This document shows, piece by piece, positions 581 to 20,837 of a DNA stretch of 64,000 nt (position 1 is the first letter of the stretch; each line of letters opens with the position of its first letter). The stretch is from a candidate division FCPU426 bacterium (GTDB lineage Bacteria > Oederibacteriota > Muellerivitia > Muellerivitales > Muellerivitaceae): positions 94,750 to 158,749 of the forward strand of contig DAIDGV010000024.1 in assembly GCA_027452205.1 (NCBI GenBank), written 5' to 3'. A program made the translations under genes and the position numbers. The notes below the pieces were generated by a model. That model did not search any database, was not told the DNA's origin, and worked only from the letters and a program-made list of their open reading frames with translations.

Positions 581-660
581 AATTTTGAATTAATAATTTT
601 GAATTAATAATTAAAAAGATCACTTCTCACCTAAATTCATCATTCATAATTCTTAATTTT
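581..660. repeat. AT-rich intergenic repeat region between hemW and lepB
   Basis: The 14-mer AATTTTGAATTAAT occurs twice in tandem (581-594 and 595-608). A second AT-rich block at 634-660 differs from the block at 26054-26079 at one of 26 positions. The right block overlaps the stop codon of lepB (659-661). It appears to be a dispersed intergenic repeat. No gene is visible here. Confidence 0.6.
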
Positions 661-1363
661 ATTTCACCATGTGGAACATGCGGCTGAAGTCGGGATGGAA
701 GTTGTTGCTGTGCCAATAGATCATCCAAGCCTTGCCCTTGATGAGCTTCTCGTCCAACTGGCCCCAGTAACGGGAGTCATAGCTGTTGTCGCGGTTATCG
801 CCCATCATGAAATAATGCCCCGCGGCCACGGTGACCGGGCCGAAAGTATCACGCTTGCCGCCCATATATTCGCCTTCCGGATAGATCTGCGGATCGGTGT
901 GAATGATATAGGGCTCGTCCTGCTTGATCCCGTTCACATAAAGCACTTTTTTCTTTTCTTGGATCACATCGCCCGGCAGGCCGATGCAACGCTTGATGTA
1001 ATCCTTGCTATGGTCCAGGGGGAACACGAACACCATGATGTCGCCATGTTTGGGTTTGTTGAACTCAAGGAACCGGTCCGTGGCATTGAGCAACGAATAA
1101 CCGTACTCGAACTTATTGACCAGGATGTAATCGCCGATCTCCAAGGTGTCTTCCATGGAACCCGAGGGGATGGTGAAGGGCTGGACCAGGACCGCCTTGA
1201 TGGAGAGCGCCACCACCATGGCCACCCAGAGCGAATCGACCGTTTCAATGATGCCCGCGTGGGCCGGATCCTTGCGCACCTTGGGGAAGATGAACCAAAG
1301 GATGAGTTGGACCACCGTGAGGATGGCCGCACCGATGTAGAGATATTGATTCAGGTTTTCCAT
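659..1363 (-). CDS. lepB: Signal peptidase I
   Basis: Membrane-bound serine protease (S26 family) that removes signal peptides from exported proteins. I chose the ATG at 1363 (MENLNQYLYIG, 234 residues), which has AAGGA eight bases upstream. A longer frame to 1429 exists, but its extra part runs through an intergenic repeat and is not credible. Two hydrophobic segments come first (about residues 8-27 and 45-60). Box B reads IPSGSMEDTL with the catalytic Ser near residue 69, box D reads DYIKRCIGLPGD with the general-base Lys near 124, and box E reads MGDNRDNSYDSRYWG. All catalytic elements are present. It lies just after lepA on the same strand, as the two genes often do, but here a repeat element separates them. 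Confidence 0.95.
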   Translation of the reverse strand: MENLNQYLYIGAAILTVVQLILWFIFPKVRKDPAHAGIIETVDSLWVAMVVALSIKAVLVQPFTIPSGSMEDTLEIGDYILVNKFEYGYSLLNATDRFLEFNKPKHGDIMVFVFPLDHSKDYIKRCIGLPGDVIQEKKKVLYVNGIKQDEPYIIHTDPQIYPEGEYMGGKRDTFGPVTVAAGHYFMMGDNRDNSYDSRYWGQLDEKLIKGKAWMIYWHSNNFHPDFSRMFHMVK

Positions 1364-1393
1364 TTTTATTCCTTTAAAGTTCGAAGGCTTTTG

Positions 1394-1512
1394 AACCACT
1401 AAGGGCACAAAGAGCGCTAAGTAAATCAAACTTCCGTCTTTTTAATCCTCAACCTCAACTCAACAATTCATAAATTCAGACGTTCTTTGTGTCCTTGGTG
1501 CCATTTGTGGTT
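1394..1512. repeat. Inverted-repeat intergenic element, copy A
   Basis: Two 28-base arms (1394-1421 and 1485-1512) pair with about 20 of 28 matches around a 63-base loop. The plus-strand left arm contains AACCACTAAGGGCACAAAG and the right arm contains CTTTGTGTCCTTGGTG. The right arm starts five bases past the lepA stop. Copy B at 21710-21822 has the same design. RNA from the minus strand could fold into a long imperfect hairpin after lepA. Confidence 0.65.
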
Positions 1513-1517
1513 AAAGT

Positions 1518-3317
1518 TTAATCTTCAACCTTTAAAACCGCCATGAAAGCCTCTTGGGGGATCTCCACGGACCCAATGTTTTTCATGCGTTTTTTACCTT
1601 CTTTTTGCTTATCCAACAGCTTCCGCTTACGGCTGATATCGCCGCCATAGCACTTGGCCAGAACGTCCTTACGGCGAGCCCGTACCGTTTCCCGGGCAAT
1701 GACCTTGCCGCCAATGGCCGCCTGGATGGGCACTTCGAACATCTGCTGCGGAATGATCTCTTTTAGTTTCTCAGCGATCTGCCGACCCCGGTGTTCGGCC
1801 TTGTCGCGGTGCACCATGAAGGACAAGGCGTCCACGATCTCGCTGTTCAAAAGGATATCCACCTTCACGATATTACCCTCTTGGTAGCCGATGGGTTCGT
1901 AATCCAGCGAGGCGTAACCCTTGGTGGCGCTTTTGAGCTTGTCGAAGAAATCCATGACCACCTCGGCCAGGGGCAATTCATAGGCCACCACCGCGCGGGT
2001 CGTGTCGATGAAACTGGTGTTCTTATGGATACCCCGTTTTTCCTGGCAGAGGGTCATGACCACGCCGATATAGTCGGCAGGCACGATGATCTTGGCGTCG
2101 ATGTAAGGCTCATAAATAACGTCGATCAAGGAGGGGTCCGGAAGATTGGCGGGATTATCCACCGTGATCTCCTCGCCGTTCGTCTTCTTCACCTTATAGA
2201 CCACGCTCGGCGCGGTGGCGATCAGGTTCAGGTCATATTCCCGTTCCAAGCGCTCTTGAACGATCTCCATGTGGAGCAGCCCAAGAAAGCCGCAGCGGAA
2301 ACCAAAGGAAAGGGCCAGGGACGTTTCCGGCTCGTAAGCTAAAGCTGCGTCGGAAAGTTTCAACTTACCCAAGGCTTCTTTCAGGTCCTGATAATCATCG
2401 GTGCTGACCGGGTAAAGCCCGCAGAACACCATGGGAAGGACATCCTTAAAACCGGGCAAAGCCTCGGGCGTCGGATTGATCTCGTCAGTGACCGTATCGC
2501 CCACTTTGGCGTCGCGGACTTCTTTGATGTTAGCGGCGATATAACCGACCTCGCCGGCGGAGAGACTTTCGGTCTTCTCCATTTTGGGTTTGAACACACC
2601 GATCTCTTCGACCTCGAAAACCTTGTTCGTCGCCATGAACTTCATCTTGGTGCCCTTTTGAATGGAACCATTGATGACGCGCACAAAGATCATCACCCCA
2701 CGGTAAATATCGTACATGGAATCGAAGATCAGGGCTTTCAGGGGTTCCTGGGCCTCCCCCGTGGGGGGCGGCACCAGTCGGACCACCGCTTCGAGAATGT
2801 CCTCGATGCCAATGCCTTCTTTAGCGGAAGCCAGCACCGCGTCGTTGCTGTCCAACGCCAGGGAATCTTCCATCTGCTTTTTGCAGCGCTCCACATCCGC
2901 CGAGGGCAGGTCGATCTTGTTGATGACCGGGATAATGGCAAGCTTCTGGTCCATGGCCAGATAAGCATTGGCCAGGGTTTGGGCTTCCACCCCTTGGGAA
3001 GCATCAATGAGCAGCAGGGCTCCTTCGCAGGCTTTCAGGCTTCGGGATACCTCGTAATTGAAGTCCACATGGCCCGGGGTATCGATGAGGTTCATTTCGT
3101 ACTTATTACCGTCTTTGGCTTTATAGAAGAACCGGACCGCCTTGGCCTTAATGGTGATCCCCCGCTCCCGTTCCAGGTCCATCTGGTCCATCAATTGAGC
3201 GCGCATTTCCCGGGGCGGGATAGCGCCAGTGAACTCCAGAAGCCGGTCGGCCAGGGTGCTTTTTCCGTGATCAATGTGGGCAATAATGCAGAAATTGCGT
3301 ATGTGTTGCAGCGACAA
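1518..3317 (-). CDS. lepA: Elongation factor 4 (LepA GTPase)
   Basis: Ribosome-associated translational GTPase (EF4) that acts in initiation/back-translocation of the ribosome. The best start is a TTG at 3317 with AAGGAG eight bases upstream, giving [20 protein letters not shown] and 599 residues, exactly the usual LepA length. An upstream ATG at 3356 would add 13 residues that include the ribosome-binding site. G1 is AHIDHGKST (residues 13-21), G3 is DTPGHVDF and G4 is NKIDLP. The C-terminal LepA domain carries the conserved [18 protein letters not shown] stretch. Nothing is missing. It precedes lepB on the same strand, separated by repeat copy A. Confidence 0.96.
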
Positions 3318-3544
3318 GGGGTGAACTCCTTCAAAAGTGAGGGCGTAGTATAGCAATCCCGCTCAAAAGTCCAAGAAGGCTGGAAGTTATATAAATCAGT
3401 CTTTTCTATGGGGTTTCACCCCCCGTGACCAAGCTTCTGGCCCTTAAAAAGCGTTAATTCCATCCATCGTTCGGATAATTCAGTCCATAGTACCCAAACA
3501 TATACTGATTTCCCTGAGTGAAGAACGAACCCAGGGATTTCTTC

Positions 3545-6590: not shown

Positions 6591-7574
6591 CTAGAAGAAT
6601 CTTATCCCTGAAATAGTGTAATTAATAGTGATGAGGCCCGACTGATAAGCGTTTTCTTCGGTCCAGGCAAAGAAAGACAGGCTTTGAAGCTGAGTCCCCG
6701 AGAAAGTAGGCGGGTTGGAAATCGACCCATAACCATACTGTTTCAAATCACCCCAATATTTTTGGATCAAGACCCACTGATTCTTGGGCGTATTGGTATA
6801 GTCATATTCAAAGCCATCATAACAATGGGTATCCCAGGGGTTTGGATCATTGGGCGGGGGGCTGGTCGTATTGATGCAATTACCGCTACCCGTCCCCGAT
6901 GGCACCTGGTCCTGGACATAAGCGTTGAAAACACGGTCCACCGCGCTGTCATTGAGCGCGATAAACACATAAAACTCGATTCCCTGGTAAGGTGAAACAT
7001 CATAGTTCTTGGTGCTGCTAAAACTTAAAGGGAAAACTTCCAATTCCACGTTATCCAGGTTCCCCGCCCCAGGGGGATAAAGCGAACACTCGGGGTCGTT
7101 GATCTCTCCATTGACACTGATACCGTACTGGTCATAACCATCGGTCAATCCGGTCGGCACATAAGAAACGTTATAACCAGTTACGGCGACATTGGTACAT
7201 GGGCCACTATAGACATAATTTTCAGGCGGGGCAGGAGGTGCGCCTGTATTGATTCTTGCGTTGGGGACTAATTCCAGGTTCAGAGCATCTGGGTTATAAA
7301 CAAAGTATCCTGAATTGACCATTTGAAAGGTCGTTGGGTTATTGCAAACCGTTATCGGGGTCGACCAAGAGGTCATTTCAACGGTACTAGAACTGCCCGC
7401 GCCATAGATATTGGAATTGACTGTGGCCTTCGTGCTGGTGATATTCACTAGTTGATAAGTATCTACCGTCGGACCACTCACCGCCGCCGCGGTAGGGTTT
7501 TTGGACGTACAGCCCGCCGAGGCGATCAAAAGGCAAAGACAGAAAACCAAGCAGATCCTAGAATTTGATTTCAT
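6591..7574 (-). CDS. Lipoprotein with a carbohydrate-binding-like beta-sandwich
   Basis: 327 residues. The start MKSNSRICLVFCLCLLIASA leads to a lipobox IASAGC (Cys22). The body is beta-rich with many Asn, Tyr and Pro. The C-terminal half reads like a galactose-binding/CBM-type jelly roll: a GIEFYVFIAL strand, WVLIQKYWGDLKQYGYG, LQSLSFFAWTEENA and a last strand ITINYTISGIRFF. The same closing pattern (a strand ending ..RF/EF-F/Y) occurs in the lipoprotein at 15524 and the protein at 20995. Its start overlaps the end of the preceding porin-like gene by 17 bases. Probably surface- or periplasm-facing; a substrate-binding role is inferred from fold-like features and context only. Confidence 0.7.
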   Translation of the reverse strand: MKSNSRICLVFCLCLLIASAGCTSKNPTAAAVSGPTVDTYQLVNITSTKATVNSNIYGAGSSSTVEMTSWSTPITVCNNPTTFQMVNSGYFVYNPDALNLELVPNARINTGAPPAPPENYVYSGPCTNVAVTGYNVSYVPTGLTDGYDQYGISVNGEINDPECSLYPPGAGNLDNVELEVFPLSFSSTKNYDVSPYQGIEFYVFIALNDSAVDRVFNAYVQDQVPSGTGSGNCINTTSPPPNDPNPWDTHCYDGFEYDYTNTPKNQWVLIQKYWGDLKQYGYGSISNPPTFSGTQLQSLSFFAWTEENAYQSGLITINYTISGIRFF

Positions 7575-10464
7575 AACTCATCTCCACGTATTGAACATTC
7601 ACAGTGCCATTCAAGCTGCCCGTGCCCGCCACGGCGTTCCCCGGTGAGGTAATAATAGCACCATACCCGGCCAAGGTGGTCCCGGGCGCCAACCCGGAGT
7701 AAGAAGCCCCATTATTGGTGCCGGCTTCAAAGCTATAGTCCAAATGCAGTTTGGAATGGTCGTCAAGACTGAAAGTCGTGGATAACAGAATGTCGCTATA
7801 GGCATCGTTCACCGTAAAAGGGGTGTAAGTCCCCAAGTCCTCGTTGTTATAGATATAGCTGTAACGGGCCACGGTCGTGCCGTCGATACCCATATCGGTC
7901 CCTGACGCCGTACGCAACCCTCCGGCCGCAGTCACTTCCCACCAATTGAAAAGACCGATCCTGACACCCGTCAGCCACCAGATATCTTGCAAAGTGCCCA
8001 CTTGGCTGGACGTCGATTCATAACGGATGTTGGTACCCAGTTCTAAAGGCGTTTTCAATTGCAAGGCCGGGCCAAAATCGAAGGAGGGGCCCAAGTTGAC
8101 GTAAACGAAATTACGGACGGGCGAGACGCCGTTATAACCGTCCACCGCGACAGTGGAATTCCCGCCGCTGCTGGCCACCACATTCGGCTCGATCTCACTC
8201 AAGAAATAGACCGACCCGGGCAGTTTAAAGGACTTGTCCGGCAAGGAATTGATATCCAAGTCGAACCCGATCCCCTGGCGGTTCGGGGTGGCCAAGCCAT
8301 AAGGAAAGACGTTGTCTTGGGTACGGTCGTAAAAACTATAGATTGCGTTAGGCCGGGGCACATCGGTGTAATAGGTATTCGCCCCGCCGACAAGCCTTTG
8401 GTCGATCAAGAAATATTGGCCCCTCAAGGGAGCGCTGAAGAGACCCGGGCCGCTGTTAAGTGAGGTCAAAGCTGTTCCGACACTCAGGTCGTCTTGGCGG
8501 GTCTGGGCCAAGGGCGAGTAATAGTTCGGGCCCACGTTCAGATAATCGAAGGTCAGCTTGGTGCCGTCAAATTGGAAATAAGGATTGGCATAGACCGCGA
8601 AGTCGCTGATGGTCCGGGCGCCGTTGGCCTTGTCGTCCTGGTATTCGGAGAAGGACCCCTCATATTGAGCGCCCAAATAAACATCCCCTCCGAAACCGAT
8701 CTTGAGTTCGGGGTTCATGCTGGTAATGCGGTATTGGTGGGCCCAGGTATTGGGATCATGCGGATCGTAAATGTATTCCGTGACCGCCCCTGCCGCATTA
8801 CCCGTTGGATTCCCTGCGTAATTCAGGTACTCGACTTGTTGTCCATAGGGATTCCACAACTCGTCCAAAATGACCAAATAGCCCTTGGCCGAAAGTTGAA
8901 AAGAGAGATCGCCCATATAAAGTTTTTTGAGCTCGATGTCCGCCTTGCCGGCATAGATGAAGTCGGTGAAGAAATTCGTTTGATAGGCCGTATTCGCGTT
9001 GGTCAACGTGCCCGTATTGGCGCTGTTCAACCAACCGTTATTCGGCCAGTCGTTGAAACCGTTGCTGATCATGTGGACAAAGGCCGACACTTTGATACTG
9101 TCCAGCACGTTCGAATCGGGCCAACCTAAAGAGGTGCCGAGACGCACACCGCGGAAAGGCCAATCGGGCTCATGGTTGAAAAAGCTTTCATATTTATATT
9201 CGTCATCGGAGCGCGCGATCGGCTCGGGTTTATAGAAAAGATCCAAGTTGTTTCGGTTCCACATCGTCAAGGGCGTGTAGGACTCATAGAAGTCCCCCAG
9301 GTCCATGGTCATGAAATCCGGGCTGAACTGCATGGCAATCCATCGGAAATTTAAGGTGTCGAAATTAACGTTGTTCGGCGCGCCAAAAGCGTTGTTGTAT
9401 TGGGAATCATGGCTCAAGGGCAGGGCGGAAGTGCCCAATCGGATGATGGAATTCCATTGGAGCTGCTTGGTGATCGTGCCGACCGGGTTCAGGTCCAAGT
9501 AACCGTTCATATATTGGACTTCGGGATAGACATACTGCGGCGCCAGATAAGTGACCGCTTTGGCCCCGATATGGGTCACTGCCGTGGAAGGACCCAGGAA
9601 GGAATAGTTATTGTAGGTCTGTTGGGAAATACCGAACATCCGGCCGATGCCGTAGATCGAAACGTTCGGGGACTCGGTCAAGGACTTCACATCCCGCCAC
9701 AATTGATATTGATCGGCTTCGGCCTTGGTCAGGTCGTCCAACATGACGCCTTTGGCCTGCATGACCGCCTGCAGTTCCACCTCATAAGCCTCGTCCAAGG
9801 ATGTCAGGGCCGCTTCGGCGCTTTGGAGCAATTCGGGATGCTGGGCGTAATTGGGCGTCGGTTTGGCGGGCGGGGCGGCGGGCGGAGGCGTGGCCGCGGC
9901 GGCACTGGCATCGCTGTTCATGACGCTTTCCGACGGCGGAGGCGGGGCGGCATAATTATCATCGTCAGTCGAGGCGGCAGGCATGGCGCTGGTCATGGAA
10001 GGTTCGGCGGTCGGAGCGGCAGTGGCGGTCATGGCCGGCGCGGCGACCGCGGCACCCGGTGAAGCGACCGGTGTTGTAAGATCCGGCAATGGAACATTGC
10101 CGGCAGTGGAAGGAACGGAGGCTGAAAGGGCCGGGGAGGCCATAATGCCCGTCATGTCCGGCATCGGCGGCAAGGTCGTGTCCATCGCGTTGGCGGCCGG
10201 GGCCGGATTGGCGTCGGCTACCACGATGGTGTCATAGTTCTTTTGCGCTTTCAGGATAAGATCCGCCACTTCATAACGGGTCAGGGGCTTGGAAGAACTG
10301 CCTTCAGGCAAAAGCCCAGCGCTTTCCAGGGTCTGAAGCTTGGAATAGGTCGGGTCGTTCGAGGGCACTGACATGAACAGGTCGGCGCTGGCGGACGCAA
10401 GGCATCCTCCCGTCACCAGGAAGAAGGCCGCGGTAATAAGGAAGCGGTTAGAAACGGGCTTCAT
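7558..10464 (-). CDS. Large outer-membrane beta-barrel protein with SLH-like N-terminus (third of three)
   Basis: I chose the ATG at 10464 (MKPVSNRFLITAAFFLVTGG; 968 residues), with GGAG nine bases upstream; it overlaps the previous gene by 17 bases. After the signal peptide comes a short SLH-like unit (YSKLQTLESAGLL then LTRYEVADLILKAQ), an Ala/Pro/Ser-rich linker of about 130 residues, a helical segment (SAEAALTSLDEAYEVELQAV) and about 680 residues of alternating aromatic beta strands ending in SYEIKF. A terminal Phe is the usual signal for the BAM assembly machinery. The design resembles OmpM/SlpA-type porins that bind the cell wall through SLH domains. It is paralogous in layout to the next two genes. 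The transported solute is unknown. Confidence 0.75.
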   Translation of the reverse strand: MKPVSNRFLITAAFFLVTGGCLASASADLFMSVPSNDPTYSKLQTLESAGLLPEGSSSKPLTRYEVADLILKAQKNYDTIVVADANPAPAANAMDTTLPPMPDMTGIMASPALSASVPSTAGNVPLPDLTTPVASPGAAVAAPAMTATAAPTAEPSMTSAMPAASTDDDNYAAPPPPSESVMNSDASAAAATPPPAAPPAKPTPNYAQHPELLQSAEAALTSLDEAYEVELQAVMQAKGVMLDDLTKAEADQYQLWRDVKSLTESPNVSIYGIGRMFGISQQTYNNYSFLGPSTAVTHIGAKAVTYLAPQYVYPEVQYMNGYLDLNPVGTITKQLQWNSIIRLGTSALPLSHDSQYNNAFGAPNNVNFDTLNFRWIAMQFSPDFMTMDLGDFYESYTPLTMWNRNNLDLFYKPEPIARSDDEYKYESFFNHEPDWPFRGVRLGTSLGWPDSNVLDSIKVSAFVHMISNGFNDWPNNGWLNSANTGTLTNANTAYQTNFFTDFIYAGKADIELKKLYMGDLSFQLSAKGYLVILDELWNPYGQQVEYLNYAGNPTGNAAGAVTEYIYDPHDPNTWAHQYRITSMNPELKIGFGGDVYLGAQYEGSFSEYQDDKANGARTISDFAVYANPYFQFDGTKLTFDYLNVGPNYYSPLAQTRQDDLSVGTALTSLNSGPGLFSAPLRGQYFLIDQRLVGGANTYYTDVPRPNAIYSFYDRTQDNVFPYGLATPNRQGIGFDLDINSLPDKSFKLPGSVYFLSEIEPNVVASSGGNSTVAVDGYNGVSPVRNFVYVNLGPSFDFGPALQLKTPLELGTNIRYESTSSQVGTLQDIWWLTGVRIGLFNWWEVTAAGGLRTASGTDMGIDGTTVARYSYIYNNEDLGTYTPFTVNDAYSDILLSTTFSLDDHSKLHLDYSFEAGTNNGASYSGLAPGTTLAGYGAIITSPGNAVAGTGSLNGTVNVQYVEMSYEIKF

Positions 10465-12823
10465 AAGTGAATCTCCATATATCTTCCCAACGGGTGTAAT
10501 TCGGCTGGTCGGTCCAGTTGTATTCGTTGATGAAATAATCACCGTGGAATTGGACGGTCTTGCTCAAGGGATACATGAACCCGAAGGCCCAAGAAGTCTT
10601 GGTAATATCTAAGGGTTGGTAAGAATAGCTGCCGATATTGGCGGTATTACCGATGTAACTATAAGAGGCCAGGGCCGGCGGCGTTCCCAAGGAAGGAACA
10701 TTGCCTAACATGTTGGCCTGGGTGTATTCCTCGCCGTTGGATTGGGCATATTCATAAGCGCCCGAAAGCACCAGCGTGTCAAAACCCGCGATCGGCGGAT
10801 TGAAATCCACTGCTCCGATGAAACTGTTGACCAGATAGCCCGACAGATCGCCGCCCAGATCCGTATATTGGTTCTTATAGTCGAAAGCGATCTTACAAGT
10901 GTGATCGGTCAAGTCGAAGGCTTTGGCGAAATCCACCGTCAAGGCCGCTTCAAAGCCGGAGAAAGTGCGGGCCACCGCCGTATTCGTCGTGCTGTCCACC
11001 GCCACTTCATTACCGGAGGAATTAAAGACCCAATTAGGTGTGATCTCCTGCATTTGGGTCAAGGAAGCCTGGGGTTTGAGCCAACCATGGTTGCCGATAT
11101 CCAAGGTCATGCTCAAAACAAGACCCTCGCGGTTCGGGGTGTCGTCCCCATAGGGGAGGATATTCTCGGTCATACGGTCATAGGGGGCGTAATAAGGACG
11201 GCCCACCCCTTGGAGGGCCTGGAAAGGATAGTTATTCAGATAACCGATCAGGGCCTCGTCCTCCCAATATTGATCGTTGCTGAGATATCCCGGCGCGGTA
11301 GAGACCGGCGTCCAGCGGTTCGTCTGGGCGCCAGGCGAATAGAAAGCCGTGCCGGTGTCCAAGTACTTGGTCTCGAAATGGAACCCCGCGATGTTCAGTT
11401 CGGCCGTGCCCCGGAAAGCGGCGTCATTGGAGACGGTCTGGGTCAGGGCCGCGCTGCCCTGGGCGTTCTCGTTATCGTTATAGTTGCTGTCGGCGCCTTC
11501 GGCGGTACCGGTGACGTTGATGTCCTGGGCGAAGCGGAGGACCAACTTGGAGGAAATACTGCCGATCTGGTATGCCTTCGGAGTATAAAGCGCCTGTTGG
11601 ACCGCCAGGGTGCCCGGGTCGTCCCATAGGGAAAGACCCACGGCCTTGAATTCCAGTCCGTCCTCGAAGAAGCGGATGGCCCCTTCCCCGCCGGCGTAAT
11701 AGCTGCCGAACTGGAAAATATTCTGCTCGGCCAAGGGCCCACCCATGGCTTGCAGGTCGAAACTGCTGATAACGGAACCCTTCTCGAACTTCGGGTAAGT
11801 GAAAAGATTGAACCCGCGCAAGCGCCAGTCGTTGCCGTAGTTCATGGAGACCATTTCTTCAACGTTCATTCGGTTACGGTAATAGGAAGTGGGTTCGATG
11901 AAGTTATAAACAGGCACGTCATAGTTCCACAGGGTCAACGGCGTGTAATGCATCAGGAAGTCGCCGGCGGTAACGCTGAAATAGGGATTGTAGTTGCCCA
12001 GGGACAACCAACGGATGTCGAACAACGTCCCGTCGTTCTTTTCGATCGGGTCCTGGTTGTAGAAACCGATCGTGCGCCATAAACGAATGCGGGCGTCGAA
12101 AAGCACCGAGGGCACCGGCACGCTCTTGAGATCCATTTCCCCGAAAACCGCCGCGTTATAGACCGCCGGACCATACTGGGCCGCGGAGCCAAAACCTCGG
12201 TATTCATTAAAATAGCCCCGGGAGAACCCGGTCACATCCGTGCCCGTACGTCCCATATAAAGCTTTTGGAGGTCGGCCAAGGATTCGTTGTTGTGCTCCA
12301 GGGCGTAAATGCGGTCCTCGATCTGGGCGGTGTTGACCCCCATGGCGGCCAGTTCGCTGCGGAACTCGTCGACTAGCTGTTTCAGGCTTTTACCCGCAGC
12401 CAAGGCTTGGGCCGTGGGCGAGTAACCCGGCAAAAGGGCGCTATTGGGCAAGGGCGAACCCGGGTTCGGCAGCGTGGGGGCGGTGCCATAGGCCGGGATA
12501 TCCGGCGAGGCCGAAGGCAGCATCGAATTCCCGGTCGGCAGGCCCGGCGCGGAGGACATGGGAGGCAATCCGGCGTCGAGGGATGGCGGCGGCAAGGGAA
12601 CCGAATTAGCGGCTTGGGAGGTCAACTGAGCCACCTCCATATTGGATAGCTGATCGATCGGTTTATTGGGGGCATCCACCCAACCTGCGCTGATGAGATC
12701 TTCCAGGTTTTTGTTCAAGGCCGGAGTGCGGTCCGTGGACAAAAGGGTGCCATGCTCCGCCCAGACAGGCGAGGCGACCGCCAGGAAAAGGACCGTTAGG
12801 ATTTTAAAACCGTTCTTCGTCAT
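10448..12823 (-). CDS. Large outer-membrane beta-barrel protein with SLH-like N-terminus (second of three)
   Basis: The ATG at 12823 (MTKNGFKILTVLFLAVASPV) has AAGGAAAGAG upstream and a clean signal peptide ending VWAEH; the product is 791 residues. The SLH-like part (LNKNLEDLISAGWV, then LSNMEVAQLTSQA) is more degenerate than in its neighbours. A Pro/Ser linker and a helix (LKQLVDEFRSELAAMGVNTA; QIEDRIYALEHNNESLADLQ) follow, then a barrel with many Tyr/Trp strands (TPLTLWNYDVPVYNF, WRLRGFNLFTYP). It ends FTYEARF, a typical C-terminal barrel signal. TPLT..WN and the phrase PYG.DTPNR/ATPNRQG are shared with the third protein, so the pair are true paralogs. Probably a porin or solute channel tied to the wall; no substrate can be read from sequence. 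Confidence 0.75.
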   Translation of the reverse strand: MTKNGFKILTVLFLAVASPVWAEHGTLLSTDRTPALNKNLEDLISAGWVDAPNKPIDQLSNMEVAQLTSQAANSVPLPPPSLDAGLPPMSSAPGLPTGNSMLPSASPDIPAYGTAPTLPNPGSPLPNSALLPGYSPTAQALAAGKSLKQLVDEFRSELAAMGVNTAQIEDRIYALEHNNESLADLQKLYMGRTGTDVTGFSRGYFNEYRGFGSAAQYGPAVYNAAVFGEMDLKSVPVPSVLFDARIRLWRTIGFYNQDPIEKNDGTLFDIRWLSLGNYNPYFSVTAGDFLMHYTPLTLWNYDVPVYNFIEPTSYYRNRMNVEEMVSMNYGNDWRLRGFNLFTYPKFEKGSVISSFDLQAMGGPLAEQNIFQFGSYYAGGEGAIRFFEDGLEFKAVGLSLWDDPGTLAVQQALYTPKAYQIGSISSKLVLRFAQDINVTGTAEGADSNYNDNENAQGSAALTQTVSNDAAFRGTAELNIAGFHFETKYLDTGTAFYSPGAQTNRWTPVSTAPGYLSNDQYWEDEALIGYLNNYPFQALQGVGRPYYAPYDRMTENILPYGDDTPNREGLVLSMTLDIGNHGWLKPQASLTQMQEITPNWVFNSSGNEVAVDSTTNTAVARTFSGFEAALTVDFAKAFDLTDHTCKIAFDYKNQYTDLGGDLSGYLVNSFIGAVDFNPPIAGFDTLVLSGAYEYAQSNGEEYTQANMLGNVPSLGTPPALASYSYIGNTANIGSYSYQPLDITKTSWAFGFMYPLSKTVQFHGDYFINEYNWTDQPNYTRWEDIWRFTYEARF

Positions 12824-12839
12824 TTCGCTCTTTCCTTCG

Positions 12840-15503
12840 TTAGAACAAGAACCGGATGGTTGAGTAGATCTGGTCCGCTTGATAGTCATTCAAGGGAACG
12901 TAAGCGTCTTTGAACACTAAGTGCTTATAACGGAATTCCCACTTGGCGCCGCCCCAAGGAACGTCATAGGCGAAACCGCCGCCAATGGAATCGGTGCGAT
13001 AGCTGATATAGGGGTAGGTGTACATGGAATTCCAAAGTTCCAGGCCATAATCGCCCAGGATATTCACGTTGCGGAAGAGCTGGAACATACCCGAAAAATC
13101 GAAGACCGTCTGGTCAAAGAGCTGGGTGCCCGCGCCGGGACCGTTGATGACATTCCCATTGATGGTGACCGGTTGAGGGGAATTACTGGCGGCCACGTTG
13201 TTGTCCGTGAAGAAGAAGGACCCATAGATGGGCGTGGCGATATTCATCAGTTTGTTGAATTGGACCTTGGTCGACAAGGTAATGTAGTTATAACTCTTCA
13301 GGTCGGGGATCACATAGTACTGATTGAGGGTGACCGGATTGCTAGTGCCGATAACAGGTATCACCGCAGTACTGACCGGTTGCTGCACCCAAGTGCCGTT
13401 CTTGGCTTGGGTGACCGCCGCGCCCGGGGCGTAAAGGGTGCCCGCGTTGCTGATGGGAATGATCAAGGGAACCCGTTCGGAGCTGAGGGTATATTGATAA
13501 CGGACGTCATCCCCCGTATCTAAACTGTTGTCATTACGGTAAGCCTCGATATTGGTGATGTAGTTCTGGCGGACGGCGTACCAATTACTAATACCCGAAG
13601 TGCCATAACCGCCCCAGAAGTTTAGGCCCCAAAGCCCTTCATCGTCGGGGTAATAAAGGGAGGTCATGTTGATGGCCTCGACCACGTTATCGCCTTCGTT
13701 GTCATACTCGGCCACATACTCATGTTTTTGACTGACGTTCAAGTTGATCACGATCGCGTCCAAGAAGGAGGGCCAACTCTTCATCCAGGTCTGCTGGCGG
13801 CCGTCCCAGCCAAAATTGACGCGCCATCCGTAACGGTCGCTGACCAAGGTGTCCGCTTCCCCGATCCAACCGTAAGCGTCCATGGCTGTGCTGGGCGAGT
13901 TGGTCAGGCCATATTGGTCGAAGTGAACACCCGCCATGGCCACCTTACTTTGAACGTTGGCGAAGCTATCGCTGATGGCCGTGTAATAGAACCCCAAGGG
14001 ATAATAGGAGATGGAACCTTGCACTGCGGGCGCCTCCAAAGCGGTGTTCGTGGGAGAGCTAGTAAAACCATTAGCTGCGTTCGCTGGCGTATATCCGGTC
14101 AGGAAACTGGAGAACCCGGCCTCGGCATTCACGTTGAACAGGTCCTTCGTGTAATTCAACGTGGCTTGATAGGTCTTGAGGTTCAATTCAGGCCCCGACG
14201 TAGCGACGAAATTGTCGTTCACCCACTCCGTACTGATGTCGCCCCGAAGGCCCGGCAGGATGGTACTGTCGATCTTAGCGCCCTCTTCCCAGCGCTGGCT
14301 TTGCAGTTCGGTGGTTCCCATACGGCCAAAGAGAAGGATCAAGCGGGTATCCCCGCCGATGAAGGGCAGGTTATTCCCAACCCCATAGATACCGTCGAAC
14401 ACACGGTCATAGGTCGAGACGATGTTCCCGCTCGAATAATTCTCCTGGACCGCGGAAAGGTTGGTCATGTAGTCGTCCCAGAGCTTTCCATCCTTGTCGT
14501 CGGTGGAACGGCGCACATCGAAGGGGTTCTGGTCCAGCTTTAAAGAAGAAGGTTGTACCCCTCGGCTGAAATCACCGAAGGTCAAAGCACCAGTGTAGGA
14601 CTCCACGGTCACATGGGTGTTCCAGTCGCCCAGGGGACCGGAGAGCTGCGTGGAAAAGTCGGGATTGAACACGTAGATCGAGGCCGGGAAGCTGTATTGG
14701 CTGTTGGCGTTCCCCACCGAACCGTTGGAATCGGAAAGCATTCCGCCTAGGCCCATCGTGAAGGAACCCGCGCCGCCCAGGTCCGTTGTCATATGTATTT
14801 CGGTCTCTTGGCTTCCCCGGATGGCGTTGGCCGAGGGAATAGGCGCTTGTTGGATACCGTTCAAAGTCGGGGGTGCCGGCGAAGTGGAAGGCCCCGTCAA
14901 GCTGATCTGTTCATAACTGAACCGGGAGATATAGTCAAAGGTTGGCATTTTCATCTTGCCGTTGGCCCCGCGGGCATTGTTGTTCAAGAGGTCCTGGACC
15001 GTATTCAGCGCGTCGATCTCTTTCTGGCGGTCCTTGATCCGTTGATCTTCCTGGCTCCATTGGCTCTTCAATTCACCGGATTCGCTTTTGAGTTCCTTTA
15101 ACAACTGGTCGATCTCCAACCGAACCCGGGGATCCACATAAGGTATGGGGGTAGGCGCCAGGGTTGGCACTTGCACGGCTGTCGGGGTAGTAGACACCGC
15201 GACGGTCGGCACCGCGGTCGGGGCAGGTTCACTCGGCTTACCCAACGATGGGGCTTCGATCCGGGCCTTGGCTCTTTCGGTATAGAAGGCCAATTCCAAC
15301 CGGGTCACATATTTGCCCTCGTCCAATACCGCTTGGTCTTGAGGATCCAACAATCCATATTTTTCGAGGGCCTTGACCCTTTGATAAATGGATTCATCGG
15401 GACCCACGTTGGCCAAAGGATTGGCGTGCGCTAGCGATAGCGGTATCAAGCAGCCGAGTAAAAGCGCCGCGCTAAGGAATAAAAATTGGGTCCGTAAACT
15501 CAA
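12840..15503 (-). CDS. Large outer-membrane beta-barrel protein with SLH-like N-terminus (first of three)
   Basis: The frame is open from 15527, but the likely start is a TTG at 15503 preceded by GAGGA at five bases, giving MSLRTQFLFLSAALLLGCLI and a signal peptide ending AHA; 887 residues. The SLH-like unit is the clearest of the three (IYQRVKALEKYGLLD, then YVTRLELAFYTERAKARI). A Thr/Pro linker (PTAVPTVAVSTTPTAVQV) leads to a long coiled-coil-like stretch (RLEIDQLLKELKSESGELKS and RIKDRQKEIDALN) and a barrel ending YSTIRFLF. The coiled coil could span the periplasm. It follows the lipoprotein gene that ends at 15524 and leaves 16 bases to the next porin-like gene. Confidence 0.75.
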   Translation of the reverse strand: MSLRTQFLFLSAALLLGCLIPLSLAHANPLANVGPDESIYQRVKALEKYGLLDPQDQAVLDEGKYVTRLELAFYTERAKARIEAPSLGKPSEPAPTAVPTVAVSTTPTAVQVPTLAPTPIPYVDPRVRLEIDQLLKELKSESGELKSQWSQEDQRIKDRQKEIDALNTVQDLLNNNARGANGKMKMPTFDYISRFSYEQISLTGPSTSPAPPTLNGIQQAPIPSANAIRGSQETEIHMTTDLGGAGSFTMGLGGMLSDSNGSVGNANSQYSFPASIYVFNPDFSTQLSGPLGDWNTHVTVESYTGALTFGDFSRGVQPSSLKLDQNPFDVRRSTDDKDGKLWDDYMTNLSAVQENYSSGNIVSTYDRVFDGIYGVGNNLPFIGGDTRLILLFGRMGTTELQSQRWEEGAKIDSTILPGLRGDISTEWVNDNFVATSGPELNLKTYQATLNYTKDLFNVNAEAGFSSFLTGYTPANAANGFTSSPTNTALEAPAVQGSISYYPLGFYYTAISDSFANVQSKVAMAGVHFDQYGLTNSPSTAMDAYGWIGEADTLVSDRYGWRVNFGWDGRQQTWMKSWPSFLDAIVINLNVSQKHEYVAEYDNEGDNVVEAINMTSLYYPDDEGLWGLNFWGGYGTSGISNWYAVRQNYITNIEAYRNDNSLDTGDDVRYQYTLSSERVPLIIPISNAGTLYAPGAAVTQAKNGTWVQQPVSTAVIPVIGTSNPVTLNQYYVIPDLKSYNYITLSTKVQFNKLMNIATPIYGSFFFTDNNVAASNSPQPVTINGNVINGPGAGTQLFDQTVFDFSGMFQLFRNVNILGDYGLELWNSMYTYPYISYRTDSIGGGFAYDVPWGGAKWEFRYKHLVFKDAYVPLNDYQADQIYSTIRFLF

Positions 15504-15523
15504 AAGGGTCCTCAGATCAGTTC

Positions 15524-16285
15524 TCAATAGAATTCAACGCGGTCGACCCAATAGTCGACCTTATAAAGTCCTGGCACATTGTTTGTGCCGTTCTCCCACT
15601 TGATGTAGACCACTTCTTTCAAATGGTCCATGAAATCATCCGAGTCCAGGGTCGCGCCCCAGCCTTCTTCGCGATTCAGGCTCTTGAAATCGAAACTTTC
15701 CGCCACCCAATCCAAGGTCGGTTTCAAGAAAACACCAAAATGGTTGCCGCACTGGTCCGTACAGACCCCGCCATCGGCCACCGGGACTGTCGAGGCGATC
15801 CCAAACTCGAAACGGCGGCGGGTCGCTTGGTCGTTCGACTTGTAATAGAACCGCACCCCATGAAAAAGGGACAGATCGTAATAGGTGGTCTTCTTGAACT
15901 TCCCCTCCAAAGCCAGGGTTGGATATTTGCCGTCACCCACATCGTTCAGGTATCCCGTAATGTGGGCCGCCTTGTCGCCGTCCACTCCCCCGGTCGCGAT
16001 GAAATTCGTGTTTGGAATACTGCCATCGGTGGCGATAACTTGCCAATAACCCAGACCCGCCCCATAAAGATAAGGGTCCATATAGACCGTACCGTCGCTG
16101 AAATTAGAGATCTTTCGGTTGTCCGCCGGGATACTGGATTTATGGAGCAATTGGGCGTCCGGAATATGCTCGGCGTAAGAAGACGCTTTTGAACCTTCGT
16201 TGATAAAAACCGCCCCGCAACCGGTCAAGAGAACGAGTCCAAATAATGAGGATAAATGGAGCGCGCGGGCTCTCGTGAAAAGCAT
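15524..16285 (-). CDS. Lipoprotein with a galactose-binding/CBM-like domain
   Basis: 253 residues starting MLFTRARALHLSSLFGLVLL with lipobox LLTGC (Cys23); AGAAAGG lies seven bases before the ATG. From about residue 55 the pattern fits a jelly-roll binding domain: ISNFSDG, YDLSLFHGVRFYYKSN, FEFGIAST, WVAESFDFKSLNREEGWG and the closing strand KVDYWVDRVEFY. This is the same order of strands as in CIA30/CBM11-like sandwiches and in the protein at 20995. A VCTDQCGN pair of Cys may form a disulfide. The gene directly precedes the three porin-like genes, so a role in capturing a ligand at the outer membrane is plausible but unproven. Confidence 0.7.
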   Translation of the reverse strand: MLFTRARALHLSSLFGLVLLTGCGAVFINEGSKASSYAEHIPDAQLLHKSSIPADNRKISNFSDGTVYMDPYLYGAGLGYWQVIATDGSIPNTNFIATGGVDGDKAAHITGYLNDVGDGKYPTLALEGKFKKTTYYDLSLFHGVRFYYKSNDQATRRRFEFGIASTVPVADGGVCTDQCGNHFGVFLKPTLDWVAESFDFKSLNREEGWGATLDSDDFMDHLKEVVYIKWENGTNNVPGLYKVDYWVDRVEFY

Positions 16286-16448: not shown

Positions 16449-19400
16449 TTATTTAGGCAATTGTTCCAAAATGGAGTTCTGCAATATCTTGGAATCATAG
16501 TCCGAACCAGAGGAAGGAGCGGATCCCTGTGTGGGTGCGTTTTCCGGAGCGGCAGGCTGGGCGGGCGCGGCCCCTTGGTCTGGTGAGGCATTTCCCACTC
16601 CGCCCAAAGGATCGTTCGACGCGGCACCACCCGAATAAGGCGAATCCAATTCTCCTTGGGTACCGAGGGGTCCTAGCGAATCACCCACATCGCTGGTCGC
16701 GGGCTTAGCGGGCGCTTGGGCCGGAGCCTGGACGGGCGCGGGCTTGTAAGGCACCATGGGCACTTGGGTACGCGGCGCGGGTTGGGGCATCGCCACCGGT
16801 GCGGGCGCTTTATGGAGGTGATGATGGACTTGCGGTTCCATCGCGGGATGCTCGATGCGCCAAAGTGTCTTCGCTCCTAGGCGATGCACATAATTGAAGT
16901 CGAAAGCGCGGATGTCCGAGTCCGATTGCTCGACCAGGATCGCGGTCATGTAGCGGTTATCCCTTTCGGGCTCCTCATCCTTGGGGATGGTCACGAACAG
17001 GTTCTTGAAACGCAGGATGTGACCTGCGGGCAGGTCGAAGGGACCCACCGTGGCGATATCGGAGGCGTAATTCTTGCTCGTATCCAATTGGTGCAACATC
17101 AACCCCTTCAGGTTGATGTTCGACTGGTTACGCACTTCCACGTTGATTGGCACCGCGACACCCGCGGGGATCTCTTTTGGTTCATCCAAGACCACCTTGA
17201 TGGGCAATACCCCCTCGGCGTTCTTCATGACCGAGAAGGCTTTCCCGCCCGCCACCGTCCATTCCATCGCGCTGTAGGGACCCCTCATGCCGTAAACAAG
17301 CCGGTAAAGGTCGTGCCAGAACATGCCCAAACGGGCGTTCACATCGAACCAGCTACGGAAGGTGTCTGTTTCACGATCATAAAGTTCTTCCGGGCCCGGC
17401 GGATTCAGGGATTTTTGCACCCAGTTGAAGTCCACCATCTCGCCCATCGCGTACATACCGTTGCCCCGGGCCAGGTAATTGGGCCATTGCTTGTTCATCG
17501 TTTGCAGGGTACCGCTGTCACCTTCATAGAGCATGATGTGGTTGAAATTGACGCCCGCGTCCACGAACATCGCGGGGTCCTGGCCATGCTGGTGTCCCTG
17601 CTGCCAACCCAGGGTAAAGGTAAAGACGGGTTTGCTGACTTTCGCCTCATCCAGGATACTCTTCAAGGCCAGGGATACTTTATGGGCGCGCCACCATTCA
17701 AAGAGCGAGATGACCTTGTGGTCCTTGTCGTGTTCCACGGTCTTGGCCAGCCACAGGATGCGCTCATCCTTGTTCATGCTGCCGTACCCCGCCGGGGCGG
17801 GCACATCCAGGTCCTTCATGAACTCATCGACCATCTCATAGCCCGCGAACCCGGTGCGCACATAGTCCAAGCCGATCATATCGATCATGGAATCGTCATC
17901 GAACTTCCTCAGTAGGTCGATCACATCCTGACGGCGTTTGGGATCTTCCAGGGAGATGAACCGGGTTTGTACCACCTGACCGCTGTCCGAATCGTAACCC
18001 AGGGAGAATTGATAAGGGGCTTGGTTCCAGGCGTCGCCTACCACCTTGAAAGTGGTCATATAAGCGGCGAACTTGATGCCCGCCTCGTGGGCAGCCTTGG
18101 CGTATTTATGCGCCACATCGATATCCGAGGGATTGAAGGGAAATTCCCTTGATTCCAAATGGTCCCAGATCGAGGTCTGTCCCGCCAAGTAACAGTAGCA
18201 ATTGGCTCCCATGAACTTAGCCCAGCCGATGGCGTTACCCGGCCGCATGCTCTCGCTACCGTCCACCGCCGGCACCGCGCCATTGATGAGCTGCTTGCCG
18301 CCTTCCATGGTCAGGGTCGCGTAACCCGGATAGAGCCCTTGTGGTTTCAAGGGCGAAATGGTGAAAGCGGAACGGAGGATCTTGGGCGCTTTCCATTCCG
18401 GAGCGGTGACCGTCAAAGTGGCGATATAGGTGCCGGGCTTGGGATTGTAAGGGATCGGCCAATTGCCATAGAGGCGTCGTTCATCGGCGTCTTTCTTCAG
18501 GACCAACCTTTCCGTGCTGCCCACGGTGGTCACCGGCTCACCGTTAAGAGTGATGATCGCCGCGGCTTTCAGTCCACTGAAATTGACCGCCTGGAGCGAA
18601 CGGACCTTGATCTCGAAAGGCACCATTTCATAACGCAGGAAATTGCGGTTCGGCATCACCGCGATCATGTCGGGCAATAATTGGGAATTGGCCGGCACCT
18701 TCGGTGTGCCCATGAGCATCGGCGCGATCTTGGCCGTAGCTAAATAACCGCCAAAAGTCAGGAAGATCGCGGCAAAGGCCAAACGGAAGATGCGGTTCCC
18801 CGCCACTGCGGCCAAGGCCATTTCAAAGGCGGAAAAAGACACTTTCGGAAGGTTGAGAACGAGCCAGGGGACCAGGGGCATTTTCCATTGCGGCAAAGGC
18901 AAAACGAACTTTTTCTTCTCTTTGGCTTCGGGTTTGGGTTCAGGCTCGATCGGGACCGGTTTGGCGTTGCGTTCCTTGACCGCGCTGGAGAGGGAATCCT
19001 TGAGCTGCAGTTCCAGGTCCGCCAGCCGGATCGCGTGGGACAAAAGCTGCGCTTGGGACATCTCGCTCTCGCGCATGGCCCTTTCCAAAGCGCGCTTTTG
19101 TTCTTGTTCTTGCAAATTGGCGGCGACCTGGGCTCGGAAGACCTGGGTCCAATCCCAGAAAGCCACCGACAAACGCCCGATCCCCCTACCCGCGAAGGCC
19201 ACGGCCTTGGCCATAGCCGCGGCGGCCACCCCGACGAAACCGATAAGCGCCGCCAATCCCTTGGCGCTGGACTGACCCCACCGTTCGGACCTTTCCTTCC
19301 AGACCGTTGGATCGAAAGTGTCCGGCGCAGGCGGCTTAGGTAAGCGGAAGGCTTGTGGGTTCACTTTGCCTAATTGGGAGGACACATCCGGCGGCAAAGG

Positions 19401-20837
19401 CGTGTCCCGGGTCAGTCGAACGACCGTTTCCACGTGATAGGTCTGAGGGAACATGTCCAAGGGCTGGGCCCAATCCACCAGGAAACCATGCTGCGCCAAC
19501 AGGGCCAAGTCCCGGGCCAAAGTGGAGGGATCGCAGGAAACATAAACGATGCGTTCGGGATGCAGCGCCGCCACCCGAGCCAGCACTTCAGGGCTGACGC
19601 CCTTACGCGGGGGATCCAGGATGGCCGCGTCGATCTGCACCATACCCTTGTTGCGCAGGTCCAGAAGGATATTGGGCACGTCCCCCGCCACGAAATCCAG
19701 GTTCGTGCGGTGATTGTTCTTGGCGTTGAACTTCGCGTCCTCGACCGCCGGGGCGATCTCCTCGACGCCGATGACATACTCCGCCTTGCTGGATACGCCC
19801 AAAGCCAGCGTACCGATACCGCTGTAAAGGTCCAGCACCGTTCCCCATTTCTTTTTATGGAAGGGATCGCCCAGGGCTTTACGCACAGTTTCGTGCAACT
19901 GGTCCGCTTGAGCGGTGTTGACTTGGAGGAAGGACTGCAGGGAAACCTTCAGCTTGAAGCCGTCGATGACTTCGTAATAGTGGTCCCGACCCGCCAGCAG
20001 TTTGGTTTCTTGGCCGAAAACGATATTGGTACGGGAAGGGTTGATGTTCTGCAGCACGCCCACCAGACCCGGTATCTCGGCCATCAGTTCCTGGGCCAAG
20101 CGCGGCAGGATGTCCGCCAACTCTTCTTTAGGAAGGCCGTGCTTTTGGACCCTTTCCTCGGGCACTGCGGTTCGGGTGACGAAGGCCAGCAGCAATTCCC
20201 CGGTCTTGGTGCCGTGACGCACGCCCAAATGCCGCATAAAGCCCGTATGGCTCTTTTCCTGGTAAGGGGTCAGGCCCGCTTTGTCGATCTTATCGAGGAC
20301 CTTTTTAATGAGATCGTTGATGGCGTCGCTTTGGATAGGACAGGTCTTATAAGGCACCAACTGGTGGGAACGGGGTTCGTAGATGCCGGCCACGAAATGG
20401 TCGTCCCGCATGGAAAGCACCGGCAGCGCTTTATTACGGTAAGCGTAAGGGTCCGGCGAGGGCAGGCAGGGTTCGACCTGGATCCCTTCCAGTTTACCGA
20501 TCCGTTCGATGGCATCCCGGACGAATTGGGCTTTGGTGAGCAATTGTTTGGAATAGTTAAAGTGCTGCCACTGGCAGCCGCCGCATTCCTCGAAGATGGG
20601 ACATGGGACTTCGACCCGGTCCGGCGAGGGACGGAGTATCGCCGCCACTTCCGCCGAGGCGTAATGGTCCTTCACGGAGGTGATCTTGGCGAGGACCCTT
20701 TCGCCGGGCAATGCGCCCCGGACAAAAATGGCGAAGTCGTGGTAGCGTCCCACCGAGTCGCCCCCGAAGGCCATGGAGTCGATCTCGATCTCGACTTGAT
20801 CCCCAAATCGAACGGGTTTGACCGCTTTGGATTTCAT
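16449..20837 (-). CDS. Fusion: RlmD-type 23S rRNA (uracil-5) methyltransferase plus membrane-anchored glycosidase-like domain
   Basis: One uninterrupted 1462-codon frame. Residues 8-70 are a TRAM domain; Cys79, Cys85, Cys88 and Cys166 match the [4Fe-4S] ligands of RlmD. The SAM site is LDLYSGIGTLALG (336-348), and VSCDPSTLARD (432-442) holds the catalytic Cys435. The methyltransferase ends near 477 (YHVETVVRLTR). A linker with an Ala-rich hydrophobic stretch (527-550), a charged helix (570-625) and a Lys/Pro segment leads to one membrane span (about 684-703, positive side before it, so the rest should be outside). Beyond it are an Ig-like part (735-830), a TIM-barrel-like part (835-1200; GLDYVRTGF, FTFTLGWQQG, HIMLYEGDS) resembling GHL10/DUF4434-type hydrolases, a beta domain, and a Pro/Ala tail. 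A cytosolic RNA enzyme joined to an exported hydrolase is very odd. Confidence 0.82.
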   Translation of the reverse strand: MKSKAVKPVRFGDQVEIEIDSMAFGGDSVGRYHDFAIFVRGALPGERVLAKITSVKDHYASAEVAAILRPSPDRVEVPCPIFEECGGCQWQHFNYSKQLLTKAQFVRDAIERIGKLEGIQVEPCLPSPDPYAYRNKALPVLSMRDDHFVAGIYEPRSHQLVPYKTCPIQSDAINDLIKKVLDKIDKAGLTPYQEKSHTGFMRHLGVRHGTKTGELLLAFVTRTAVPEERVQKHGLPKEELADILPRLAQELMAEIPGLVGVLQNINPSRTNIVFGQETKLLAGRDHYYEVIDGFKLKVSLQSFLQVNTAQADQLHETVRKALGDPFHKKKWGTVLDLYSGIGTLALGVSSKAEYVIGVEEIAPAVEDAKFNAKNNHRTNLDFVAGDVPNILLDLRNKGMVQIDAAILDPPRKGVSPEVLARVAALHPERIVYVSCDPSTLARDLALLAQHGFLVDWAQPLDMFPQTYHVETVVRLTRDTPLPPDVSSQLGKVNPQAFRLPKPPAPDTFDPTVWKERSERWGQSSAKGLAALIGFVGVAAAAMAKAVAFAGRGIGRLSVAFWDWTQVFRAQVAANLQEQEQKRALERAMRESEMSQAQLLSHAIRLADLELQLKDSLSSAVKERNAKPVPIEPEPKPEAKEKKKFVLPLPQWKMPLVPWLVLNLPKVSFSAFEMALAAVAGNRIFRLAFAAIFLTFGGYLATAKIAPMLMGTPKVPANSQLLPDMIAVMPNRNFLRYEMVPFEIKVRSLQAVNFSGLKAAAIITLNGEPVTTVGSTERLVLKKDADERRLYGNWPIPYNPKPGTYIATLTVTAPEWKAPKILRSAFTISPLKPQGLYPGYATLTMEGGKQLINGAVPAVDGSESMRPGNAIGWAKFMGANCYCYLAGQTSIWDHLESREFPFNPSDIDVAHKYAKAAHEAGIKFAAYMTTFKVVGDAWNQAPYQFSLGYDSDSGQVVQTRFISLEDPKRRQDVIDLLRKFDDDSMIDMIGLDYVRTGFAGYEMVDEFMKDLDVPAPAGYGSMNKDERILWLAKTVEHDKDHKVISLFEWWRAHKVSLALKSILDEAKVSKPVFTFTLGWQQGHQHGQDPAMFVDAGVNFNHIMLYEGDSGTLQTMNKQWPNYLARGNGMYAMGEMVDFNWVQKSLNPPGPEELYDRETDTFRSWFDVNARLGMFWHDLYRLVYGMRGPYSAMEWTVAGGKAFSVMKNAEGVLPIKVVLDEPKEIPAGVAVPINVEVRNQSNINLKGLMLHQLDTSKNYASDIATVGPFDLPAGHILRFKNLFVTIPKDEEPERDNRYMTAILVEQSDSDIRAFDFNYVHRLGAKTLWRIEHPAMEPQVHHHLHKAPAPVAMPQPAPRTQVPMVPYKPAPVQAPAQAPAKPATSDVGDSLGPLGTQGELDSPYSGGAASNDPLGGVGNASPDQGAAPAQPAAPENAPTQGSAPSSGSDYDSKILQNSILEQLPK

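Follow-up and report, generated by a model that had tools for sequence, protein, structure and literature searches.

The RNA methyltransferases closest to the first half of the protein described here are RlmD/RumA (TIGR00479) and RlmCD (SP_1029; PDB accession numbers 5XJ1 and 5ZQ0), which share with it a TRAM domain joined to a SAM methyltransferase domain, and a catalytic Cys and Glu. Known members of the RlmD and RlmCD groups end at about residue 450–480. In the window, by which is meant the whole stretch of 64,000 nucleotides analysed from a candidate division FCPU426 bacterium, the chain goes on from this point into a linker, a putative internal signal peptide and a predicted exported protein (Table 1). 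A second point of reference is FbcH, the cytochrome b/c1 precursor of Bradyrhizobium, in which one chain carrying an internal signal peptide is cut by signal peptidase to give two proteins. To our knowledge, it is very rare for a bacterial gene to yield two unrelated proteins from a single chain by means of an internal signal peptide. The parts of the present fusion are of known kinds; their combination is without description in the open literature searched, where no fusion architecture of this sort was found.

Table 1. Location of the fusion gene, its segments and neighbouring genes in the window (residue numbers are those of the fusion protein)
Feature	Position	Strand	Basis
Fusion ORF, 1462 aa	16449..20837	(-)	RlmD + linker + putative internal signal peptide + predicted exported glycosidase-like protein
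RlmD-type 23S rRNA m5U methyltransferase, residues 1-477	19407..20837	(-)	TIGR00479, PF05958, PF01938, residue check
Variable linker, residues 478-684	18786..19406	(-)	Length survey, dN/dS
Extra hydrophobic Gly/Ala-rich linker segment, residues 528-546	19200..19256	(-)	Hydropathy scan
Putative internal Sec signal peptide, residues 682-702, predicted signal peptidase I cut after A702	18732..18794	(-)	Alignment, rule scan
Predicted exported product (inferred mature form), residues 703-1462	16452..18731	(-)	Homology to free-standing secreted proteins
N-terminal Ig-like domain, residues 720-830	18348..18680	(-)	AlphaFold2 model
Glycosidase-like TIM barrel, residues 831-1212	17202..18347	(-)	AlphaFold2, Foldseek, alignment
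C-terminal Ig-like domain, residues 1213-1322	16872..17201	(-)	AlphaFold2 model
Pro/Ala-rich C-terminal tail, residues 1323-1462	16452..16871	(-)	Alignment; relatives without it
Four envelope-protein genes (7558-10542, 10448-12889, 12840-15527, 15524-16285)	7558..16285	(-)	Neighbourhood comparison
lepA (EF4)	1518..3356	(-)	TIGR01393, E 2e-302
lepB, signal peptidase I, candidate processing enzyme	659..1429	(-)	TIGR02227, E 5e-46

The fusion frame comprises 1462 codons, uninterrupted from ATG to stop, in a host assembly that is near-complete (99.4%). Its two halves share one stop-free frame in all nine genomes of the order (candidate division FCPU426), the eight relatives compared being seven of the same family and one of another family in the same order. 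The frames of these relatives are 1153–1527 amino acids long, two being clipped by contig ends. The arrangement is kept across two families and six genera, and a split version was seen in none. The initial annotation had proposed an in-frame fusion and pointed to related genomes as the check on it; all eight relatives in the order keep the fusion, and an adjacent gene pair with a stop between the halves was found in none of them. A search for further copies showed the fused gene to be the only RlmD in each genome of the order. The idea that the fused RlmD is redundant beside an ordinary second copy was considered and dropped, these genomes giving just weak Rossmann methyltransferase matches.

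Among the relatives the linker measures 98–379 amino acids, and neither its sequence nor its length is conserved among the fusions; stops occur in the other frames and none in the fusion frame. Purifying selection acts on all segments of the fusion, with pairwise dN/dS values of 0.22–0.41 for the linker, 0.03–0.16 for RlmD and 0.08–0.21 for the exported part, and because of its values the linker is judged to evolve as translated coding sequence. Since the order relatives keep one stop-free frame, and given the linker dN/dS, a sequencing error can be dismissed for the clade as a whole. The main alternative named in the initial annotation, namely that an assembly or base-calling error erased a stop codon and so created the fusion, might appeal to the fact that every genome whose record title is known is metagenome-assembled, but the fusion is conserved in nine separately assembled genomes from two families, whose linkers differ in length and sequence and are all stop-free, and this alternative is rejected as exceedingly improbable. 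On comparative sequence evidence the fusion is a real gene, conserved order-wide. It is also quite unlikely that ribosomes initiate within the frame just upstream of the signal peptide as well, giving two proteins. The linker does contain in-frame ATG codons, and the gene's own start has just a four-base Shine-Dalgarno match; weak sites may suffice. None of the linker ATGs, however, lies at a conserved place among the relatives or has a good Shine-Dalgarno sequence ahead of it, and at the two closest to the signal segment (residues 653 and 673 in G000) a Shine-Dalgarno match is absent altogether, which agrees with the earlier remark that a convincing internal start is absent. The linker further holds an extra hydrophobic segment (residues 528–546), present in several relatives, weaker or absent in some and missing from G008; it is possibly a membrane-surface helix.

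The methyltransferase half was correctly recognised from the start. Residues 25–470 match TIGR00479 with 400.8 bits against a curated cut-off of 183.55 (E-value=6.8e-120), and a Pfam search places the TRAM domain at residues 12–64 (PF01938). The Fe-S cysteines (C79, C85, C88 and C166) are retained in every fusion that covers them, whereas they are absent from aligned RlmCD. The SAM motif (336–344), DPPR (408–411), the nucleophile C435 and the general base E470 are all present, and D336–G340, D408–R411, C435 and E470 are intact in each of the nine order fusions. Among solved structures, pneumococcal RlmCD comes nearest (E-value=7e-69), for which reason either U1939 or U747, or the pair of them, may be the target.

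The hydrophobic segment that precedes the exported part covers residues 685–702, with a hydrophobic core of approximately 10–13 residues and, in eight of nine fusions, an Arg at 685 ahead of that core. Over 40 alignment columns G696, A700 and A702 are the sole positions invariant in all nine fusions, which are mostly fairly close relatives with G008 as the single more distant check. AxA following a helix-breaking Gly (G-x3-A-x-A) is the textbook recognition pattern of signal peptidase I, although AxA also arises by chance in Ala-rich hydrophobic helices. A rule-based scan, home-made and distinct from SignalP, finds the 682–702 site in nine of nine full-length fusions and one extra site, in G000 only; the same scan gives 0.13 sites per protein in shuffled proteins, and false hits in 2 of 23 free-standing RlmD proteins and 1 of 32 exported domains. 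In the free-standing homologues of the exported part, too, the corresponding Ig domain is immediately preceded by a signal peptide, which there is N-terminal. What had been described as a membrane span looks more like an internal Sec signal peptide, because its core is short, an Arg precedes it, the G-x3-A-x-A is invariant and the free-standing homologues have signal peptides.

For the exported half, Ig domain, TIM barrel and second Ig domain (residues 720–1322) were modelled together using AlphaFold2 (pTM 0.72). Foldseek with this model returned glycosidases as all of its best matches (E-values down to 6e-12), with low TM-scores; a barrel-only model was poorer (pLDDT 60), and its nearest folds were again glycosidases or glycan hydrolases (E-value=2e-7). 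The structure model, which had been suggested as a check, and the Foldseek matches bear out the proposal of an exported glycosidase-like part with a TIM barrel. Residues 720–1322 gave no Pfam or NCBIfam family above cut-off, fell into no named GH family and matched no PDB sequence significantly, and naming the domain by sequence was given up. Because the TM-scores are low, the model-based assignment is held at glycosidase-like, with no firmer class. The invariant residues of the barrel are E845, D991, E1001, H1052, D1087, D1136, D1176 and E1192, and several of the invariant Asp and Glu residues (D991, E1001, D1087, D1136, D1176 and E1192) are candidates for a catalytic acid pair.

In the remainder of the phylum, a secreted protein of its own, approximately 600–690 amino acids long, corresponds to the exported part, and RlmD is encoded at another place. 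The gene lepA lies directly downstream of the free-standing gene, on the same strand and after a gap of 19–468 bases, in 20 of 21 phylum genomes examined (the single exception being G012), and some of these loci continue after lepA with lepB and hemW-like genes. In the six fused genomes where it is visible, lepA is found on the same strand 10–13 kb downstream of the fusion. The four envelope-protein genes between the fusion and lepA, for which there was no Pfam match, keep their order throughout the FCPU426 order. Since lepA is near both the free-standing and the fused genes, RlmD appears to have joined an old exported gene at the latter's own locus, signal peptide included. The linkage to lepA is suggestive, although it may reflect nothing more than a long-lasting neighbourhood.

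Eight distant homologues outside the phylum (G102, G110, G173, G115, G164, G158, G208 and G061; L115–L122) are free-standing, with neither lepA nor rlmD adjoining. Within the phylum, the gene of the exported protein is tied to that of a translation factor (lepA/EF4). An additional record beyond the 21 genomes, L039, also has lepA directly downstream of the free-standing gene. It is titled Candidatus Methylomirabilis and falls, by its exported protein and by the surroundings of lepA, among the Goldbacteria-type genomes (G039); it is probably misnamed or misbinned. In the window itself, nucleotides 3518–6346 of the plus strand specify a 942 amino acid protein, probably exported, with folded parts on either side of a long low-complexity stretch rich in Thr, Ser, Asn and Pro.

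A decayed version of the fusion was found in G013, a genome of another family (L047:123–3566). Here an RlmD-like domain is almost directly joined to the same exported protein in a frame of 1148 amino acids, with the signal or membrane segment lying between the two. The four Fe-S cysteines are kept, but the SAM-loop, DPPR and catalytic residues are all gone except one Gly: DPPR is lost, C435 is replaced by Glu and E470 by Arg. The exported part retains its invariant residues, and the equivalent of the signal peptidase site is just A-F-G. An intact RlmD was not found in this 89%-complete assembly. The exported-domain tree joins G013 to the FCPU426 fusions with support of 87/91 (not starred, and with long branches), and the RlmD tree does not reject that grouping (p-AU 0.46). 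On these long branches the FCPU426 and G013 fusions may stem from one origin or from two.

The fusion gene probably encodes a two-product polyprotein that is exported by Sec and cut after Ala702, a reading favoured by the invariant G-x3-A-x-A signal peptide, the result of the scan and the presence of lepB in the window. One message would be translated into one chain, of which the RlmD domain would be made first, fold in the cytosol and methylate 23S rRNA there. The former N-terminal signal peptide of the exported protein (682–702), now internal, would then bring the chain to the Sec translocon, where signal peptidase I would cleave after Ala702. This would yield the exported glycosidase-like protein (703–1462) and an RlmD extended by a tail of 225 residues; this tail, with the rest of the signal peptide at its end, may keep RlmD at the membrane temporarily or be trimmed off. 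Since E. coli RseP is reported to clear the membrane of signal peptides (PMC8144685), the RlmD tail may, by analogy, be freed by an RseP-like removal in this organism. We infer from these comparisons that the chain is translated in full, exported and cleaved, that both halves are active enzymes and that the RlmD tail has one of the fates given above. The earlier suggestion that the product may be cut in two is thus favoured by the internal signal peptide, the cleavage itself being predicted only. Against it, segment 528–546 complicates the topology in G000, and the equivalent site in G013 reads just A-F-G.

The initial annotation had also suggested that the protein is membrane-anchored and that methylation is tethered there; the hydrophobic segment is real, but with its short core and invariant G-x3-A-x-A it is best read as a signal peptide rather than an anchor. 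The main rival to the polyprotein, though a doubtful one, is that the full-length protein stays intact, with cytosolic RlmD permanently tethered through a membrane span and rRNA methylated at the membrane. One open frame, an Arg on the cytosolic side of the hydrophobic segment and a long, flexible linker would suit such a protein, as would the linkage of the fusion gene to lepA, since most of the E. coli LepA is found at the membrane (PMC4245954). The core, however, has fewer residues than a span would normally need and is closed by the invariant signal peptidase motif; the aligned free-standing relatives show no span apart from their N-terminal signal peptide; and the linker is unconserved in sequence and length. 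A possibility to be taken seriously, if not quite an even one, is that the fusion is real and probably processed, yet the pairing has no purpose; this is compatible with a polyprotein, and the confidence placed in the two overlaps. The fast drift of the linker fits such neutrality, as does G013, where RlmD lost its catalytic residues while the exported part kept its invariant ones; retention across both families and all six genera, with no split observed, speaks against it. Finally, ribosome maturation or translation might be coupled to the envelope, a lepA-tied exported protein having been joined to RlmD so that the methylase is brought to or held at the Sec translocon, with the RlmD of G013 acting as a non-catalytic RNA- or ribosome-binding anchor; we regard this as speculative and unlikely.

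If the gene does specify a polyprotein, the order's only RlmD would supply a conserved example of a cytosolic rRNA enzyme that is able to act together with its exported partner or to be set free from it. For telling a function of the pairing from a frozen accident, two natural comparisons are at hand: the linkage to lepA in the rest of the phylum, and the fusion of a pseudo-RlmD in G013.

By fold, GH2, GH66, GH123, GH20, GH35, Cwp19 and PgaB have the same TIM barrel flanked by Ig-like domains as the exported half, which differs from them in showing approximately 10% identity and TM-scores below 0.5 and in matching no hydrolase family of Pfam or NCBIfam. The Goldbacteria-type free-standing proteins are nearer, with the same Ig-TIM-Ig layout, 31–36% identity and the same invariant acidic residues, but unlike the fusion they possess their own N-terminal signal peptide, are unfused and are encoded directly upstream of lepA. 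FbcH and the fusion are both single bacterial chains with an internal signal peptide, that of the fusion being putative and its cleavage predicted only. Whereas the products of FbcH belong to one membrane complex, the fusion would pair a cytosolic rRNA enzyme with an exported glycosidase-like protein.
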